This document shows positions 22,327 through 60,115 of a DNA stretch of 64,000 nt, piece after piece. The notes below the pieces were generated by a model. It did no database searches and was not told where the DNA came from. It saw only the letters and a list, made by a program, of their open reading frames with translations. Origin of the DNA: Cryptosporangium minutisporangium. GTDB taxonomy: Bacteria > Actinomycetota > Actinomycetes > Mycobacteriales > Cryptosporangiaceae. The translations under genes were made by a program, and so were the position numbers. Location of the stretch: assembly GCF_039536245.1 (NCBI RefSeq), contig NZ_BAAAYN010000038.1, forward strand, positions 69,369 to 133,368, given 5' to 3'. Every line of letters starts with the position of its first letter. Within the stretch, counting starts at the first letter, position 1.

Positions 22327-23168
22327 CGCCGCGCCACGTGGGCGAGCACCCACTGCACCATCTCCGACGAGCGGGAGGCCCGGGACTCCACCTCCAGCCC
22401 GCTGGGCTTCACCTCCAGCGGCCCGGCCGACATCGCGGCGAGGGTCTGGCGGAGGTCCTGCACGGCCCGCCCGCCGATGTCCTCGATCCGCCGGAGCGCG
22501 GTGGCCGTGCGTCCGGGATCGCGGCGGAGCACCTGCCCGGCGCCTGCCGCCTGCATCACCATCGCGCTGACCGCGTCGGCGAGGGCGTGCTGCGACACCC
22601 TGGCGGCCTCCAACCGCTCCTGCGCGGTGATCCGTTGCGCGACCGCCAGCCGCCCGATCTCCAGGAGCGTGTCGCGGTACGCGCTGGCCCGCCGGGCGCG
22701 CCCGGCCGTCCACGCGCCGAACCCGGCGAGCGCGCAGCCGACGACGATCGTGGTCCGGCCGGCGATCTCCGGCTCGACGTTGTTCCAGGCCATGACGTCG
22801 AGCGCGGTGGCGCAGAGCGCTGCGGTCGCCACCGGGAGGTAGCGCGCCGACCGGGCGTGGACGGCGCCCAGCGTGTAGGTGGCGACCAGCACGCTCAGCG
22901 TCGGCATGTAGTGCGGGACGAGGCCGTTGGTGGCCAGGCAGAACAGGACGACGACCTGGGAGCAGGTGAGCCACAGGACGCCGACCGGCGCGCGGTGGCG
23001 CCAGTACAGCGCCGCGAACCCGGACGCAGCGACGAGAACGGAGAACAGTGCGCCCGGCGCGGGCCGGAGCAGGCCGGCCAGGACCGAGGGATTGGCGAAC
23101 AGGCACAGGTCGGCGACGAACAGCAGCGCCGCGAAGCCGGCCCGTCGAACCGTGCCGGCGGTGCTCAT
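22323..23168 (-). CDS. Membrane histidine-kinase-like protein lacking catalytic parts
   Basis: A 281-residue protein with about six membrane segments (residues about 8-150) followed by a HisKA_3-like helical region. Aligning ARVSQHALADAVSAM with the family ARELHDvvaHhLSvM puts Gln at the phospho-acceptor position, with a His one residue later. After the dimerisation helices (TALRRIEDIGGRAVQDLRQTLAAM) the protein stops within about 45 residues, so there is no ATPase domain. It looks like a membrane receptor that uses a kinase-type dimer helix for signalling. The start ATG overlaps the peptide gene's TGA and its own TGA overlaps the LuxR gene's ATG. Confidence 0.75.
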   Translation of the reverse strand: MSTAGTVRRAGFAALLFVADLCLFANPSVLAGLLRPAPGALFSVLVAASGFAALYWRHRAPVGVLWLTCSQVVVLFCLATNGLVPHYMPTLSVLVATYTLGAVHARSARYLPVATAALCATALDVMAWNNVEPEIAGRTTIVVGCALAGFGAWTAGRARRASAYRDTLLEIGRLAVAQRITAQERLEAARVSQHALADAVSAMVMQAAGAGQVLRRDPGRTATALRRIEDIGGRAVQDLRQTLAAMSAGPLEVKPSGLEVESRASRSSEMVQWVLAHVARR

Positions 23169-34139: not shown

Positions 34140-35260
34140 TGTCGCTGCACTGGCCGTGGGCGCTCGGCGCGCTGCTGGCCGTGCCGCTGCTCCTGTTCGC
34201 CCGGTGGTGGCTCAACCGGCGTCGGCGGCGGACGGCGATCCAGGTCTCCAGCGTCGCGTTGATCCGGGCGGCGTTACCCCGGCGGCCGTCGTGGCGGCGC
34301 CGGGTTCCGGTACTGCTGTTCCTCGCCGGGCTGCTCGTCCTCGGCGCAGGGCTGACGCGTCCGCAGGCGTCGGTGACGGTGCCGACCGATCAGAGCACGA
34401 TCCTGCTGGCGATCGACGTGTCCGGGTCGATGTGCACCACCGACATCGAGCCGAACCGGCTCGCGGTCGCCAGCGAGGCCGCCCGTAGCTTCATCGAGTC
34501 GCAGGACAACGGCGTCCGGATCGGTCTGGTCGCGTTCTCCGGGATCGCCGGTCTGCTGGTGGCGCCCACGACCGACCAGGAGGCACTGCTGGAGGCGATC
34601 GACTCGCTGACCACCGCCCGTGGCACCGCGATCGGGCAGGCGATCCTCACCGCGATCGACGCGATCGCCGAGATCAACCCGGACGTCGCCGCCAGCGGCG
34701 TCAACCTGGGCGACAGCGCCGCGAAGCCGAGCACCGACCCGAACGGCGGCACCGGCTCCGGGCCGCTCGGCGGCTACGAGCCGGACTCGATCGTCGTGCT
34801 GACCGACGGCTCGAACACCCAGGGCGTCGACCCGGTCACCGCGGCCGAGCAGGCCGCCGCGCGCCGGGTGCGGGTGTTCACGATCGGCTTCGGCAGCACC
34901 GAGCCCGCGCCGATGGTCTGCACTCCCGACCAGATCAGCGGCGACACCACCGGCGGCAACTGGGGCGGTGGTCCGCGCGGCGGCGGCCGGCGCGTGCAGC
35001 AGATCGACGAGGGGGCGCTGACCCAGGTCGCCGACCTGACCGGCGGCCGGTACTTCCAGGCGAAGGACGCCGATCAGCTGGCCGACGTCCTCTCCGACCT
35101 GCCCAGCGAGATCGGAATGCAGCGCCGGGACGTCGAGGTGACGGTGTGGTTCGTTCTCGTCGCCACGGTGCTGGTCGGCGCGGGCGTCGGCCTCTCCCTG
35201 TGGTGGAACCGTCCGCGCGCGCCGGCGCCCCGGAGCGTTGTGCGTTCCGGCAGGGCATAG
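34139..35260 (+). CDS. VWA-domain membrane protein (BatA/B-like), second copy
   Basis: Paralogue of the preceding gene, 373 residues. Two N-terminal membrane segments (about 8-22 and 54-72), MIDAS at ILLAIDVSGSMCTTD, Thr motif LTTARGTAIGQAI, then FTIGFGSTEPAPMVC with a Gly-rich loop (GGNWGGGPRGGGRR), and a C-terminal membrane segment (about 337-358). An extra loop between residues about 180-215 is acidic and Gly-rich. It is the last gene of the MoxR operon; a hairpin overlaps its stop. Confidence 0.85.
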   Translation: MSLHWPWALGALLAVPLLLFARWWLNRRRRRTAIQVSSVALIRAALPRRPSWRRRVPVLLFLAGLLVLGAGLTRPQASVTVPTDQSTILLAIDVSGSMCTTDIEPNRLAVASEAARSFIESQDNGVRIGLVAFSGIAGLLVAPTTDQEALLEAIDSLTTARGTAIGQAILTAIDAIAEINPDVAASGVNLGDSAAKPSTDPNGGTGSGPLGGYEPDSIVVLTDGSNTQGVDPVTAAEQAAARRVRVFTIGFGSTEPAPMVCTPDQISGDTTGGNWGGGPRGGGRRVQQIDEGALTQVADLTGGRYFQAKDADQLADVLSDLPSEIGMQRRDVEVTVWFVLVATVLVGAGVGLSLWWNRPRAPAPRSVVRSGRA

Positions 35261-52639: not shown

Positions 52640-53065
52640 GTGCCCACCACGTCGGAGTTCGAACGGATGCTGCGGGGAGCCTCCCTGCGGGTGACGCGTC
52701 CGCGCCTGGCGGTGCTGCACGCGGTGTACGAACGTCCGCACGCCGACACCGACTCGATCCTCGGTGCGGTGCGGGCGGACCTCGGTGAGGTGTCCCACCA
52801 GACCGTCTACGACGTCCTGCGCGCGCTGACCGACGCCCGGCTGGTGCGGCGCATCGAACCGGCCGGCTCGGTAGCGCGCTACGAATCACGGGTCGGGGAC
52901 AACCACCACCACGTCGTCTGCCGGACGTGCGGCGTCATCGCCGACGTCGACTGCGCCGTCGGGGCCGCACCCTGCTTGACCGCCTCTGCGGACCTCGGCT
53001 TCGCGATCGACGAGGCCGAGGTCACCTACTGGGGCGTGTGCCCCGGCTGCTCGGCCGCCTCGTAA
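52640..53065 (+). CDS. Fur-family metalloregulator, first paralogue
   Basis: A 141-residue Fur/FurA-type repressor. The winged helix is LRVTRPRLAVLHAVYERPHADTDSILGAVRADLGEVSHQTVYDVLRALTDARLVRRIEPAGSVARYE. The metal-binding half has DNHHHVVCRTCGVIADV and the C-terminal CPGC, giving the two CxxC pairs of the structural zinc site and the HHH regulatory cluster. FurA usually sits beside katG, but here a STAS gene follows. GTG at 52640. A close paralogue is at 62746. Confidence 0.85.
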   Translation: MPTTSEFERMLRGASLRVTRPRLAVLHAVYERPHADTDSILGAVRADLGEVSHQTVYDVLRALTDARLVRRIEPAGSVARYESRVGDNHHHVVCRTCGVIADVDCAVGAAPCLTASADLGFAIDEAEVTYWGVCPGCSAAS

Positions 53066-53173
53066 CGCCCGCGCGCTCTGTCCACCCGCCGCTCCACCGG
53101 TTAGGCTCGACGTGTCGCCGTGGCCTTCTGAGTCGAGGGAACGCGGTCGACGTCGAGCGACGGGGTCGCCGTC

Positions 53174-53518
53174 ATGAAATCTCACCTTCCCGGCGGGCAG
53201 GCGGATGCTGCGCCGCTGCTGCGCGCCAGCGTCAAGCGGATCGGCGCCTCTCACGTGCGCGTCCGCCTGATCGGCGAAGCCGACCGCAGTTCGTCGGCCC
53301 ACCTGACCAAGGCCGTGACGGCGGCACTCCACCACAACCGGCCGGACGTGATCGACTTGGATCTCGCCGAGGTGCGGTTCATCGACGCCGGTGGGGTGGG
53401 TGCCGTGGTCGAGGCCCGCCAGCACTGTGCGGCGGCGAACTGCCGGCTGCGGCTGACCGACCCCCAACCGTTCGTGCGCACGGTGCTGCGGCTCACCGAA
53501 CAGTGGGACGTCGGGTAG
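53174..53518 (+). CDS. STAS-domain protein (anti-sigma-factor-antagonist-like)
   Basis: A 114-residue STAS protein. LLRASVKRIGASHVRVRLIGEADRSSSAHLTKAVTAALHHNRPDVIDLDLAEVRFIDAGGVGAVVEARQHC covers the fold. The Ser that is phosphorylated in SpoIIAA-type proteins lies in the (D)SSG or S(G/A)xx loop; here it is replaced by FIDAGGVG, so a Ser in that loop is missing and the regulation may differ. It may bind an anti-sigma kinase encoded elsewhere. Function inferred from the fold. Confidence 0.75.
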   Translation: MKSHLPGGQADAAPLLRASVKRIGASHVRVRLIGEADRSSSAHLTKAVTAALHHNRPDVIDLDLAEVRFIDAGGVGAVVEARQHCAAANCRLRLTDPQPFVRTVLRLTEQWDVG

Positions 53519-53595
53519 GGCCGTCGGCCGTGTCGTCCGAGAAACGGACGATGTAGAAGGTATGGACGGTCGGCTCCAGGGGTAGATCCGTCGCC

Positions 53596-53892
53596 ATGAC
53601 GGAACCATCGACGCGACCGGACAACACCTCCGACGGCCCGACGCTGGCCGGCGGCCCCTACCTCGGTGGCCCGGGCAACGACGCCGGCTACACCGCCGGC
53701 CTGCCCCGCCCGGGGCATGCCGACGAGATCCCCGACTCCGACGACGCGGCCAAGGACACGATCGCGGCGGCCGGCGCGGCTCCGGCCAGCGCGGCCACCA
53801 CCCCCGCGACGGACGCGGCACGGGAGACGGACACCGGCGAGGCGCCGGACGACGAGCCGGGCGCCGACGTCGGCGCGGTCAATCCCAGCTGA
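53596..53892 (+). CDS. Small acidic disordered protein
   Basis: A 98-residue protein with no hydrophobic core: Gly/Pro-rich start (GPTLAGGPYLGGPGNDAGYTAGLPRPGHADEIPDSDD) and an Ala/Asp/Glu/Thr-rich rest. Codon use agrees with a real gene (G/C at third positions) and the ATG has a weak AGGGG site. It overlaps the convergent SGNH fragment by 14 bases. No family is recognised; it may be a small scaffold-like or secreted protein, but no signal peptide is seen. Confidence 0.5.
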   Translation: MTEPSTRPDNTSDGPTLAGGPYLGGPGNDAGYTAGLPRPGHADEIPDSDDAAKDTIAAAGAAPASAATTPATDAARETDTGEAPDDEPGADVGAVNPS

Positions 53893-54466
53893 GCGAACGC
53901 TCCGACGCACGGTCCTGCCCGACGACCTGGACGCCGCCGAGGCCGGTCCGCGGGGCCGGCCGGTTACCGGTCGCGGCCGACCGGCTGCTGAGGTCGTACG
54001 CCGCCGCCAGCACCGCGGGCGCGAGCGCGTCGGCGATCAGCGCGTAACCGGCGCTGGACGGATGGAAGCGGTCGGCGCTGAACAGCGTCGGATCGTCGGC
54101 GAAGCCCGCCGCGGTCGTGACGGCGGCGTCGGCGATCCGGGCGCCCGCGGCGCGCGCCACGCGGACCTGCGCCTGCTGCAGGCGGAGGCTGCCCGCCCGC
54201 ACCACCGGCCGCATCGCGGCCGGCACCCACGGGACCACGCTCAGATCCGGGGCGGGTGCGACGACGACCTCCGCGCCGGCCGCGCGGAGCGTCCGCACCG
54301 CATCGCCGAGTTGGGTCGCGGCGTGCTCCGGCGGCACCAGGCGGGTGAGGTCGTTGGCGCCGATGATGACGAGGGCGAGCGACGGCCGCCACGCTGCCGC
54401 GCGTCGCACCTGGGCGTCCAGGTCCTGGCTGCACGCGCCGGGCACGGCGAACGCCGGAGCGTCGCG
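53879..54466 (-). pseudogene. N-terminally truncated SGNH/GDSL hydrolase
   Basis: About 190 residues match the C-terminal part of an actinobacterial SGNH hydrolase: RRAAAWRPSLALVIIGANDLTRLVPPEHAATQLGDAVRTLRAAGAEVVVAP holds block III (GxND) and SADRFHPSSAGYALIADAL holds the catalytic Asp-His block V. The N-terminal about 80 residues with the GDS block and the catalytic Ser are absent. Upstream, the same frame runs directly into the stop codon of the STAS gene (54467-54469) with no room for the missing part. It is most likely a deletion remnant; translation from GTG 54445 would give an inactive 188-residue protein. Confidence 0.7.
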
Positions 54467-54844
54467 TCACCTTCCTGCTGTGGCCAGCGTCGCCAGCAAC
54501 CGGTCGTCGGCCACCGGCAGGACCTCGGCGAGCGAGGTGGCCGCCAGGATGCGGCACAGCAGCGTCGGCGGATTCGCCACCGTCAGCTCGGCGCCCACGG
54601 CCGCGACCGAGGCGCGGGTGCGGAGCAGAGCGGTGAGGCCGCAGGCGTCGACGAACGCCAGTTTTGTGCAGTCGAGGACGACCACCTCGACGGTCCCCTC
54701 GGCGAGGTCGCCGACGGCGTCGAGGAGGATCGGAGCGGTCTGGTGGTCGAGTTCGCCCTCCAGCGCGCAGCACACGATGCGGTCGAGATGGCGCACGCTC
54801 ACCGCGAACGGAACGCTCGCCCCGAACTGTGGTGGATCGGCCAT
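54467..54844 (-). CDS. STAS-domain anti-sigma-factor antagonist
   Basis: A 125-residue STAS protein: RIVCCALEGELDHQTAPILLDAVGDLAEGTVEVVVLDCTKLAFVDACGLTALLRTRASVAAVGAELTVANPPTLLCRIL. The Cys-Gly pair in FVDACGLTALL stands where SpoIIAA has the phosphorylated Ser, so it may not be regulated by phosphorylation at that position. GGGAGG precedes ATG 54844. Its stop codon is immediately followed, in the same frame, by the truncated SGNH hydrolase, so the two were probably joined by a deletion. Confidence 0.8.
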   Translation of the reverse strand: MADPPQFGASVPFAVSVRHLDRIVCCALEGELDHQTAPILLDAVGDLAEGTVEVVVLDCTKLAFVDACGLTALLRTRASVAAVGAELTVANPPTLLCRILAATSLAEVLPVADDRLLATLATAGR

Positions 54845-55040
54845 GGCGGCCTCCCGAGTGCGTCCGGAACCGTCGTGATGGATGCGGGCAGGTGAGAACG
54901 GCGGCTTCGTCGCCCGATCTCACGGTAACGAGTGACCCCGGCCTGATCCACACTCATTCACGTCCGGATCCGCGGGCGGCGGACCGCGCCACGCCTACGC
55001 ACGGTATTGATCGCGCCTGGTCGGGGGTACGAGGCAGCGC

Positions 55041-56462
55041 ATGGGACAAGAGAGTCTTCCAGTGCTGGAGGCGATCGAGCAGTTCCGCGACGCCGGAAAC
55101 TACTCGTTCGGGCTGCCCGGCCATCGTCTCGGGCGGGGAATCGACGAGCGGACCGCGGCCGTGCTGTCGCCGGGCGCGTTCGAGGCGGACGTCGAGCTGG
55201 CCAAGCAGGGTGTGCCGGAGGCGGAGAAGCTGCTAGCGCAGGCGGTCGGTGCTCGGGACGCGGTGTTCACCACCTGTGGTTCGAGCATCTCGATCCACAC
55301 CGCGCTGCTGACGGTGACCGGCCCCGGCCAGAAGGTCCTGGTCGACCGGAACGTCCACAAGTCCGTGGTCGCCTCGTTGATCCTGGCCGGTGCGATCCCG
55401 GTGTGGCTGCGGCCGCGCTGGGACTACGAGAACCAGATCGCGCACCCGGCGACGGCCGGGGACGTCGTCGAGGCGCTGGAGCGCGATCCGGAGATCAGCG
55501 CGGTGCTGGCGATCACGCCGACCGAGTACGGCACCGGCGCCGACGTGCACGGCATCGCGGACGCTTGCCACCAGCGCGGGGTGCCGCTGCTGGTCGACGA
55601 GGCGTGGGGTGCGCACTTCCCGTTCCACCCCGACCTGCCGACCGCGGCGGTGCGGGCCGGTGCCGACATCACGATCCAGAGCCTGCACAAGGCCGGCGGC
55701 GGTCTCTGCCAGTCGTCGATCATGTTGCTCGGTGGCGATCTGGTCGACCCCGTCGACCTGCGATTGCGGCTGGACCTGATCACGACGACCAGCCCGTCGG
55801 CACTGTTCTACGGATCGATCGACGGATGGCGGCGGCGGATGGCCGCCGAGGGCGAGAAGCTGTTCGGCCGGGCGCTGGACCGAGCCGCGCGGCTGCGCGA
55901 ACGGCTCGGTGGGGTGACCGGCCTGGCGGTGCTGGGCTCGGACATCATCGGCCACGACAGCGTCGCCGAGTGGGATCCGCTGAAGCTGTCGGTCGACGTC
56001 TCCGCGCTCGCATCACCGGTTACCAGGCGAAGGAGTGGCTCCAATCGGAGCAGCGGCTCGCCGCGCAGCTCGGGGACTCCCGCCGGGTGATCTGCTCGCT
56101 CAGCTACGCCGACGACAACGATGCGGTCGAGCGGCTCGCGGCGGCGTTCGAGGCGCTCGCGGCGGACCCGCCGAGCCCGGACCGGCCGGCGCCGGCGGTC
56201 CCGCCGCTGGACGAACTGAACCTGGAGCAGGCGATGCCGCCCAGGGACGCGTTCTTCGCCAAGACCCAGCAGGTGAAGGATCCGGTGGGGCGGATCTCTG
56301 CCGAGATGATCAGCCCGTATCCGCCGGGGGTACCGGCCGTCCTGCCCGGGGAGCGGTTCAACGCCGCGGTGGTCGAGTACCTGCGCGGGCAAGGCGGCGG
56401 GCATGACGATCCCGGACGCCGCCGACCCCGAGCTGGAGACGTTCCGGGTCGTCCACGAGTAG
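55041..56462 (+). pseudogene. Orn/Lys/Arg decarboxylase family gene with two frameshifts
   Basis: PLP-dependent fold-I decarboxylase. NYSFGLPGHRLGRG, TTCGSSISIHTALLTVTGPG, LLVDEAWGAHFPFHP and the PLP-Lys motif ITIQSLHKAGGG are in the start frame. At about 56010 one base is missing (SVDVSAL is followed in the next frame by ITGYQAKEWLQSEQRLAAQLGDSRRV). At about 56391 one extra base returns to the first frame, which then gives GMTIPDAADPELETFRVVHE and the stop at 56462. The whole span is 474 codons, the normal length. As sequenced, translation stops at 56090. Either two sequencing errors or a decayed gene. Confidence 0.7.
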
Positions 56463-56514
56463 CCCCGCCACGGGTGACTACGGTGGCGAGGACGATCTGG
56501 TGAGGAGCAGCCCC

Positions 56515-57867
56515 ATGTCCGAACGGAACACGATCGCGGCGGCGGTCGAGGCGGTCATCCCCGGAGCGCGTGCCGATCTCGAGCGGCTGGTGCGGATCCC
56601 CAGTATCTGGGCCGACCCGGCACACGCCGCCGACACCGAGGCCAGTGCCGCGGCGGTGGCCGAGCTCGCCGGTGCGCTGAACCCGGCGAGCGTGCGGATC
56701 ATCCGCGCCGACGGCGGGGCGCCGGCCGTGCTCGCGCACTGGCCGGCGCCCGAGGGCCAGCCCACCGTGCTGCTCTACGCGCATCACGACGTCCAGCCCA
56801 CCGGCGGCGACGCGCTGTGGACCAGCCCGCCGTTCGAGCCGACCGAGCGGAACGGACGGCTCTACGGCCGCGGAGCCGCGGACGACAAGGCCGGCGTCAT
56901 GACCCACCTCGCGGTGCTGCGCGCGTACGACGGCAGGCCACCGGTCGGCGTCACGCTGTTCGTGGAGGGCGAGGAGGAGTCCGGGTCGCCGACGCTCCCG
57001 GCGCTGCTGCGCGAGCACTCCGAGGAACTGGCCGCGGACGTGATCGTGATCGCGGACTCGGCGAACCCGTCCGTCGACGTCCCCGCGTTGACGACCAGTC
57101 TGCGGGGCCTGGTCGACCTGGTCGTCGAGGTGTCGATGCTGGAGAGTGCGGTCCACTCGGGCGTCTACGGTGGCCCGCTGGGCGACGCGCTGACCGCGCT
57201 CTGCCACACGCTCGCCAGTCTGCACGACGAGAAGGGCGAGGTCGCCGTCGCCGGGCTGCGCCGCAACACCGGCACGGACGCGGCGACCGTGGAGGCGTCG
57301 GAGGCGGAGTTCCGGGCCGAGGCCGGTGTGCTCGACGGCGTCGACCTGCTCGGCTCGGGCACGATCGCCGAGCGGATCTGGCACGCGCCCGCGATCGCGG
57401 TTCTCGGTATCGACGCCCCGGCCGTCGCGAACGCGTCGAACGTCCTGCTGCCCCGGGCGCGCGCGTTCGTCAGCCTGCGGCTCGCACCCGGCGAGGACGC
57501 CGTGGCGGCCCGCGACACGCTCGCCGAGCACCTGCGCGCGCACGTGCCCTGGGGCGCGCACGTCGAGACCGCACCCGCCACCGGCATCGCCGAACCGTTC
57601 AGCCTGGACGCCAGGGGCGGCGCCTACGACGCGGCCCGGCGGGCGTTCGCCGAGGCGTACGGCAATGCCACGGTCGAGACCGGGATCGGCGGCTCGATTC
57701 CGTTCATCGCGGAGTTCGCGCGGGCGTTCCCCGGTGCCGCGGTGCTGGTCACCGGCGTGGGCGATCCGGCGAGCCGCTGGCACGGCATCGACGAGAGCCT
57801 GTCGCTCCCGATGTTCACGACCGGCGTGCGCGCGGAGGCGTTCCTCCTCGACGAGCTGCGGCGCTGA
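56515..57867 (+). CDS. M20-family metallopeptidase (dipeptidase-like)
   Basis: A 450-residue M20 peptidase. VLLYAHHDVQPTG gives the first metal His-Asp pair, GRGAADDKAGVM the bridging Asp, FVEGEEESGSPTL the catalytic Glu and metal Glu, and the dimerisation domain follows (SMLESAVHSGVYGGPLGDALTALCHTLAS). It resembles carnosinase/succinyl-diaminopimelate desuccinylase-type enzymes that cleave dipeptides. GAGGAG precedes ATG 56515. It is next to the decarboxylase gene on the same strand; a shared amino-acid degradation role is possible but unproven. Confidence 0.85.
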   Translation: MSERNTIAAAVEAVIPGARADLERLVRIPSIWADPAHAADTEASAAAVAELAGALNPASVRIIRADGGAPAVLAHWPAPEGQPTVLLYAHHDVQPTGGDALWTSPPFEPTERNGRLYGRGAADDKAGVMTHLAVLRAYDGRPPVGVTLFVEGEEESGSPTLPALLREHSEELAADVIVIADSANPSVDVPALTTSLRGLVDLVVEVSMLESAVHSGVYGGPLGDALTALCHTLASLHDEKGEVAVAGLRRNTGTDAATVEASEAEFRAEAGVLDGVDLLGSGTIAERIWHAPAIAVLGIDAPAVANASNVLLPRARAFVSLRLAPGEDAVAARDTLAEHLRAHVPWGAHVETAPATGIAEPFSLDARGGAYDAARRAFAEAYGNATVETGIGGSIPFIAEFARAFPGAAVLVTGVGDPASRWHGIDESLSLPMFTTGVRAEAFLLDELRR

Positions 57868-57876
57868 CGTCCGGGC

Positions 57877-58823
57877 TCAGCTCTCCACCAGCTCGGCCAG
57901 TTCGGTGAGGCTGGAGACCAGCGCCGCCACCTGACCGAGCGCGTGCCGGTGGCACTCCGCGACCGCCGCGGCGAGCGCCTGCTCGGGTGGGCCTCCGTCG
58001 TCCGCGAGCCGCGGGGCCTCGGCCATCAGCGCGGCGACCCGCTCCTGCAGGTGCCCGCGCACCGACCCGACGAGTGACTCGGCGGCCTCGGCGCAGAGCG
58101 CGATCGCGATCGCGGTGCCGATCAGTCCGGCGAGCGCGTCGAGGTTGTGCGTCATCAACCCGAGGTACTGGTCGACGTCGCGTCCGGGCCATGCGAGGAC
58201 CGGGCGTAACGCCCGCTGCAGATCGGTGCGGACGCCGTGCAGGTCGGCGGCGGTCCCGTGCAGGGTCGCGACCTGAGCGGCGACCACGGCCGGTCGTCCG
58301 GTCAGCCCGTCGAGCACCCCGCGGAGCGGTTCCAACCGGGGGAGCGCCCACGCGGCCGGGTGCGCGGCAGTCGGGTCCGGGTCGACGGGTCCGGGTCGAA
58401 CGGGTCCGGGCCCGCGCGGGAGTGCCCGACGACCAGCGCCGGGTCGATCCACGCTCCGTCGGTGATCCGCTCGTGCAGGTAGGTGTACTGGTCGGCGGGC
58501 CGGCCCAGCAGCCAGGGGCTCCGGATGACGACCGGCCCGACCGGGCAGTCCCCGTCTTCGTCGCCGGCCGCGACGGCCTCCCAGAGGTCGTCGGCGAAGA
58601 TCGCGAAGTTCTCGGCCACGTACTCGACCAGCTCGGCCTGGCGCGCCGTGACCCGGTCCAGGGCCTCGGCGATCCATCCGGCCAGCGACCCGAACGACTC
58701 GTCGTCCCAGGTGAGACTCCGGCACACCGCCCCGATCCAGGCGAGCCGGAGACGCACGGTGGAGATCTCCGCCGCGTGCGCCCGCAAGGTCCGGATGTCT
58801 GGCGGCCGGCCGTCGAACCTCAT
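57877..58823 (-). pseudogene. Helical protein of unknown function, frameshifted in a repeat
   Basis: From ATG 58823 (GGAGGACAG upstream) the frame encodes RTLRAHAAEISTVRLRLAWIGAVCRSLTWDDESFGSLAGWIAEAL and ends out of frame in Arg-rich sequence. From about 58385 another frame continues with GLTGRPAVVAAQVATLHGTAADLHGVRTDLQRALRPVLAWPGRDVDQYLGL to the stop at 57877. One unit of the 14/15-bp repeat at 58372-58410 has 14 bases and the next 15, which explains the shift. Restoring one base gives about 315 residues. The N-terminus has WxG-like helical features of type VII secretion-associated proteins; this is weak. Confidence 0.6.
58372..58410. repeat. 14/15-bp tandem repeat at the frameshift
   Basis: CGGGTCCGGGTCGA (58372-58385), CGGGTCCGGGTCGAA (58386-58400) and CGGGTCCGGG (58401-58410). 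The first unit lacks one A relative to the second. It lies inside the broken gene and changes its frame, so slippage here is the likely cause. Confidence 0.75.
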
Positions 58824-58984: not shown

Positions 58985-60115
58985 CTGACCGAAAGACGAA
59001 TGATCGCCCTCGTCGTCGGGATCGTGGTGGTGGCGATGGCGGGCGGCGCACTGGTGGGGGTCGCGCTCACAGCCGATCGCGCGCGACCGACCAGAGCGGA
59101 GTCGACCGCGCCCACCCACGACCGGTCTGGTCGCGCGCGACCGACCAGAGCGGAGTCGACCGCGCCCACCCACGACCGGTCTGGTCGCGCGCGACCGACC
59201 AGAGCGGAGTCGACCGCGCCTGCCCACGGCCGGTCCGGCCCGGTGCCCGCCGACTACGTGGCGATCGAGAAGGTTCCGCGGGTGCGCCGAGGCCCCGCGG
59301 CCGGGAACGACCGGGGTTCGTCCGGCACCTACACCGCGCGGTGCGGCTCCAATCAGGAGGGCCACTACAACTCCGACAACGTGATCGTCAGTCCGGGCGT
59401 GCCGAACGGCGCGCACCACCTGCACGACTACGTCGGCAACACCAGCACCTCCGCCGCCTCCACCGACCGCAGCCTGGCCGCGGCGCCGACGACCTGCCGG
59501 GATCCCGGCGACCGGTCGGCCTACTACTGGCCGGTCCTGCGGGACCTGGTCGATCCCCGGACCCAGGCCCGGTTCCCCGGCGAGTCGGAGTCGGACCGCA
59601 ACGTGGGCCTGGTGCTGCGGCCGGCGGTGTCGATGGTGTACTCCGGCAACCCGTTCGCGCCGGTGACCGCGATGCCACGCTTCCTGCGGGTCGTCACCGG
59701 GAACGCGAAGGCGCTCACCGCCGGCGGCCGGAACGCGCGCGCCCGGTGGACCTGCCGCGGGTTCGCCGACCGGGTCACCGCCGACCGGTATCCGCTCTGT
59801 CCGGCCGGGCGGGGCCTCACCCGGATCCTGGAGTTCCCGAGCTGCTGGGACGGCCGGAACACCGACAGCGCGAACCATCGCACGCACGTCGTCTTCCCGG
59901 ACGCGCGAGGCGCGTGCCCACCCGGAACGGCCGCGGTGCCGAAGCTGACGATCACGCTGACCTACGACGTGCCAGCGGGGGCGTCGTTCGCGATCGACAG
60001 CTTCCCCGACCAGCGGCGGGCCGCGACGACCGACCACGCAGACTTCGTCAACGTGATGGTGCCGGGGTCGATGGCGCGGCTGGTCGGCTGCCTCAACGCG
60101 GGCCGCCGGTGTTGA
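58985..60115 (+). CDS. DUF1996 domain exported protein with repeat linker
   Basis: A 376-residue exported protein. A membrane or signal segment (MIALVVGIVVVAMAGGALVGVAL) is followed by a low-complexity 18-residue repeat, three times, then the DUF1996 domain: PGVPNGAHHLHDYVGNTS, TCRDPGDRSAYYWPVL, LEFPSCWDGRN, HRTHVVFPDARGACP, SFPDQRRAATTDHADFVN. The first ATG is at 59000, without a ribosome site. AGGAGG (58973-58978) stands six bases before the in-frame CTG at 58985, which would add TERR before the hydrophobic segment, so a CTG start is plausible. DUF1996 proteins are secreted and the function is not established. Confidence 0.8.
   Translation: MTERRMIALVVGIVVVAMAGGALVGVALTADRARPTRAESTAPTHDRSGRARPTRAESTAPTHDRSGRARPTRAESTAPAHGRSGPVPADYVAIEKVPRVRRGPAAGNDRGSSGTYTARCGSNQEGHYNSDNVIVSPGVPNGAHHLHDYVGNTSTSAASTDRSLAAAPTTCRDPGDRSAYYWPVLRDLVDPRTQARFPGESESDRNVGLVLRPAVSMVYSGNPFAPVTAMPRFLRVVTGNAKALTAGGRNARARWTCRGFADRVTADRYPLCPAGRGLTRILEFPSCWDGRNTDSANHRTHVVFPDARGACPPGTAAVPKLTITLTYDVPAGASFAIDSFPDQRRAATTDHADFVNVMVPGSMARLVGCLNAGRRC
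59077..59238 (+). repeat. Three near-identical 54-bp tandem repeats
   Basis: Units start at 59077, 59131 and 59185. The first two differ at one or two bases and the third diverges at its end. Each encodes 18 residues (RARPTRAESTAPTHDRSG and variants) and is in frame, giving a Thr/Ser/Arg-rich linker between the membrane segment and DUF1996. Copy number is likely to vary between strains. Confidence 0.9.

Follow-up and report, generated by a model that had tools for sequence, protein, structure and literature searches.

The window analysed here is a stretch of 64,000 nucleotides from the draft genome of the G+C-rich actinomycete Cryptosporangium minutisporangium, and between positions 55041 and 56462 of its forward strand lies a putative Orn/Lys/Arg decarboxylase gene whose coding sequence changes frame twice. 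The ATG at 55041 and the TAG at 56460-56462 share one frame, which makes the total length divisible by three; this length, like the match of both ends to the family, had been reported in the first-pass annotation. Family-coding sequence follows the ATG frame to about 56008, continues in another frame to about 56386 (approximately 376 bases between the breaks, close to the 380 first proposed), and then returns to the ATG frame for 23 codons. The features of the gene, with the evidence on which each is placed, are the following.

55041 to 56008, forward strand: segment A, the PLP domain of an Orn/Lys/Arg decarboxylase, in the ATG frame (PF01276; SLHK motif).
56005 to 56012, forward strand: first break, 1 base fewer than in nine relatives (alignment of relatives, codon-usage model, protein spacing).
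56009 to 56386, forward strand: segment B, the C-terminal domain, in another frame (PF03711; codon-position differences from the congener G002).
56088 to 56309, forward strand: four TGA codons of the ATG frame, at 56088, 56217, 56274 and 56307 (frame translation).
56380 to 56392, forward strand: second break, 2 bases fewer than in nine relatives (DNA alignment, protein spacing).
56391 to 56462, forward strand: segment C, the last 23 codons and the stop, again in the ATG frame (frame and relatives).

The Pfam profile OKR_DC_1 (PF01276) matches 55041-56087 with 145.1 bits against a cut-off of 27, and OKR_DC_1_C (PF03711) matches 56009-56407 with 42.3 bits against a cut-off of 24.2, in a frame different from that of the PLP domain; an NCBIfam search gave only matches far below the cut-offs. 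The SLHK sequence aligns with the STHK of 5fkz and the SFHK of 2x3l (SxHK motif), and we take its lysine to be the PLP-binding residue. From these domain matches the product is predicted to be a PLP-dependent decarboxylase of the Orn/Lys/Arg type, with ornithine, lysine and arginine as candidate substrates. The closest known system is the Orn/Lys/Arg decarboxylases that combine OKR_DC_1 with OKR_DC_1_C, in their short version from actinobacteria (about 475 residues): the gene resembles that family in having both Pfam domains above their cut-offs and the SxHK lysine, and differs from its relatives in that the coding sequence is spread over two frames in the draft.

Several other features were recorded around the gene. 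Upstream, the region 53056-55047 has no blastn match in the fetched stretches of G002, while its flanks are syntenic; it contains a STAS-domain gene (54467-54844, reverse strand) and a GDSL lipase frame (53879-54445, reverse strand), which agrees with its own Pfam profile only from position 42 on. Downstream, a second gene with one frame change occupies 57883-58817 on the reverse strand. Its break, near 58388, falls inside a 14-base tandem repeat (58372-58410); the G002 counterpart of this gene is a single coding segment, and a Pfam search with both of its frames gave no match. Farther on, at 59077-59235, a 54-base tandem repeat (2.9 copies, 97% matches) adjoins a DUF1996 gene.

We have measured the size of the two breaks against nine close relatives aligned as DNA (71-86% identical), namely the congener G002, with 86% protein identity to the decarboxylase, and eight sequences from Dactylosporangium, Actinoplanes, Paractinoplanes, Couchioplanes and an Intrasporangiaceae genome, which are 71-77% identical in segment A and are open through segments A, B and C. 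Near 56009 the sequence of the window is 1 base shorter than all nine relatives, in agreement with the -1 shift first placed near 56010; a codon-usage model that uses no alignment of homologs also switches frame at this point (56009/56012). The spacing in proteins gives the same result: the first place holds one residue (3 bases) in each of 71 relatives aligned as proteins, and 2 bases in the window. Near 56385 the window is 2 bases shorter than 9 of 9 close relatives. At this second place the 71 proteins have either 6 residues (42 sequences) or 7 residues (29 sequences), and all 25 relatives with at least 45% identity have 6 residues, corresponding to 18 bases; in the window there are 16. The +1 shift near 56391 claimed by the first-pass annotation does not agree with these values: one extra base would require a spacing of 15 bases (5 residues), which is present in none of those 25 relatives, and the position that best fits the second break in the alignments is near 56385. 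Relative to the relatives, then, both changes are losses, of one base and of two bases, and the gene is three bases short rather than balanced. No tandem array with a score of at least 40, the mark looked for in a phase-variable gene, was found at 56009 or 56385; no promoter-like or terminator-like site was supported at the breaks.

The presence of two frame changes in the gene is thus borne out by the homologs, by Pfam and by the codon-usage model. What does not survive is the proposal that they are opposite shifts that cancel. A compensated mutation would have the second change put right the protein that the first had disrupted; in its favour are that together the changes amount to a multiple of three and that either end matches the family. 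It had been argued that two such changes are unlikely by chance unless they are sequencing errors or a compensated mutation; by simple arithmetic, about one in two pairs of independent shifts restores the frame. More decisively, the ATG frame meets a TGA at 56088 and three more at 56217, 56274 and 56307, all upstream of the second break; the second change therefore cannot rescue the first. Translation starting at the ATG never reaches it, and ends in a product of 349 residues that has no C-terminal domain. Compensation is thereby refuted for standard decoding, as it would need read-through of four stops, and the finding that both changes are losses relative to the relatives also counts against it; we consider it exceedingly improbable. 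Whether an error or a real inactivation lies behind the breaks, there is no cancelling pair as claimed, and the case is an ordinary one.

The age of the damage can be judged from the constraint that is still visible in the three segments. Compared with G002 in its own frame, segment B has 19, 12 and 41 differences at codon positions 1, 2 and 3, respectively, which is the pattern of a selected gene. Among the invariant columns, those on which all nine relatives agree, segment A keeps 152 of 153, segment B 55 of 56 and segment C 10 of 10 (217 of 219 overall); the two that are lost correspond to the codon at the first break and to one I to M change. When amino-acid changes are polarised with outgroups, segments A, B and C have 10, 3 and 1 on the branch of the window, versus 13, 10 and 0 on the G002 branch. 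There is no sign of the relaxed constraint of an older pseudogene in these data: nearly all the invariant columns are kept, and the window branch is not enriched in amino-acid changes. Because the segments still look selected, the breaks are either very recent or not present in the organism.

The same constraint in all three segments is what might be expected under translational recoding, whereby ribosomes would shift frame at both places and produce the full enzyme. This hypothesis requires two independent sites, and there is no Rfam match in 54000-58500. It also fits poorly with the homologs: of the 78 loci checked (L007-L012, L018, L019 and L027-L096; the six loci on the opposite strand, L008, L009, L011, L012, L018 and L019, were checked for frame separately from the rest), 77 have segment B in the frame of segment A, the exception, L096, being a partial match. 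Slippery motifs were considered by looking at the sequence only, and we found no frameshift site conserved in the homologs that could serve for recoding. Recoding is accordingly very improbable, and the form of it in which both losses are real and the ribosomes of this one lineage shift twice without a conserved signal is hardly credible.

The main rival is instead a plain, uncompensated and recent inactivation, which the first-pass annotation did not include. Under this explanation both losses are in the organism, would have occurred very recently, and leave a product of at most 349 residues without the C-terminal domain. Evidence that such losses do occur comes from nine loci with short matches (L013-L017 and L020-L023), which are outside the set of 78 and were inspected separately. 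Two of them, L021 and L023, form one decayed remnant of the decarboxylase family on contig 18 of the assembly under study (L021:1269-1692), in which residues 3-69 and 71-119 are in two frames and are followed directly by the C-terminal 19 residues, the middle being gone. In the genome G008, two others, L013 and L020, make up a single broken copy, which extends to residue 222-230 approximately, in two frames, and whose last half is absent; the remaining five are weak or without match. Both the contig 18 remnant and the partial copy in G008 look like true decay, judging from these structures. Another family member has thus been lost in the same genome, which therefore favours a real loss and lowers the odds for an error. 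An open paralog, about 35% identical, is present on contig 56 and could make the loss of the gene tolerable. Of seven matches in the genome only 1 was full, which does not support another complete copy of the locus, and a plasmid search gave no match. What weighs against inactivation is that two separate losses would have to be reconciled with the retention of 217 of 219 invariant columns and with a window branch that carries no excess of amino-acid changes. A neutral gene that gathers two indels would be expected to gather substitutions as well. Overall, we rate recent inactivation somewhat below an even chance.

The alternative to inactivation is that the organism carries an ordinary, intact decarboxylase gene, and that the draft sequence lost 1 base near 56009 and 2 bases near 56385; these losses would then be products of sequencing or assembly, absent from the cell itself, and might for instance mark the two ends of a G+C-rich patch, some 376 bases long, with poor coverage. 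The quality of the assembly bears directly on this point. The assembly under study (G000) consists of 152 contigs and 9,231,419 bases; contig 38 contains six runs of N, four of which are single-base, and none lies at the decarboxylase gene. Two rules were used in scanning for frame breaks. A looser one, which registers frame changes between coding stretches and gained 47 candidates from 60 planted single-base deletions, gave 18 candidates in 1,197,941 bases of the assembly, while G002 and G003 together had 8 in 844,563 bases (p 0.32); many of its background candidates are probably gene borders. A strict rule, which recovered 20 of the 60 planted deletions and left 56009 unflagged, gave 4 candidates in 1.198 Mb, and for G002 and G003 a single one in 0.845 Mb. 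That the assembly is generally full of indels is thus not supported, considering the p-value of the looser rule and a strict count too small to tell.

A view closer to the locus was obtained by aligning 86.6 kb to G002, in which six persistent phase breaks touch coding segments. Two are those of the decarboxylase, one is the break near 58388, two lie near gene starts of the assembly under study, and one is on the G002 side. The breaks outside the two genes are the following.

Contig 38, position 22959: phase break about 90 bases from the start of a G002 coding segment, not counted as clearly mid-gene.
Contig 38, position 73238: phase break at a 32-base insertion close to where a coding segment of the assembly under study begins, not counted as clearly mid-gene.
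Contig 38, position 34807: phase break on the G002 side.

Single gaps whose length is not a multiple of three are much more numerous (241) and uninformative, as the aligner ignores codons; persistent phase runs were used for this reason. Earlier scans that included frames of the other strand and gene ends (9 and 2 frame changes on the side of the assembly under study, 5 and 1 on the G002 side) are superseded by these counts. Three breaks fall within 2.4 kb, which suggests that the assembly is weak here, but the third may instead be due to the 14-base repeat in which it lies.

On balance, we give slightly better than an even chance to the gene being ordinary and the breaks being local errors of sequencing or assembly. 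This reading is consistent with the almost complete lack of decay apart from the breaks, with a third in-gene break some 2 kb away near 58388, and with the 4 versus 1 candidates of the strict rule, small numbers obtained with 56009 unflagged. Homologs in two other drafts, both among the 77 loci, are also split, at other places: L055, from the draft of Amycolatopsis thermalba NRRL B-24845, has its segment A divided among three frames, and L054, from a metagenome-assembled Pseudonocardia, extends over two frames with its break elsewhere than in the window. PMC3711429, which deals with complete genomes to 2013, leads in the same direction: unclustered (singleton) frameshifted genes validated by BLASTp are expected there to be sequencing errors and not genuine indels. 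The decarboxylase resembles such singletons, which may be due to a sequencing error or to a recent indel, in having a frame change in one genome with homologs and Pfam matches on both sides; it differs from those described there in having two breaks in one gene, and in belonging to a draft rather than to a complete genome. Set against an error are the result of the looser rule, which shows no clear surplus of frame breaks in the assembly taken as a whole, a point that is also in favour of inactivation; the decayed same-family remnant on contig 18 and the broken copy in G008, which indicate that real loss occurs; the simultaneous loss of two bases, which is atypical of a homopolymer miscount; and the position of the 58388 break in a 14-base tandem repeat, where it may be real slippage. 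The first-pass annotation had offered a choice between a sequencing error and a compensated mutation: the second is excluded by the four stops and the two losses, and the first stands as slightly likelier, although unproven.

The matter bears mainly on annotation: as it is, the gene would be annotated as a pseudogene or as two fragments, with the risk that a decarboxylase of this species is overlooked. Real losses would make it a further case of recent inactivation, in a genome that also has an older remnant from the family.
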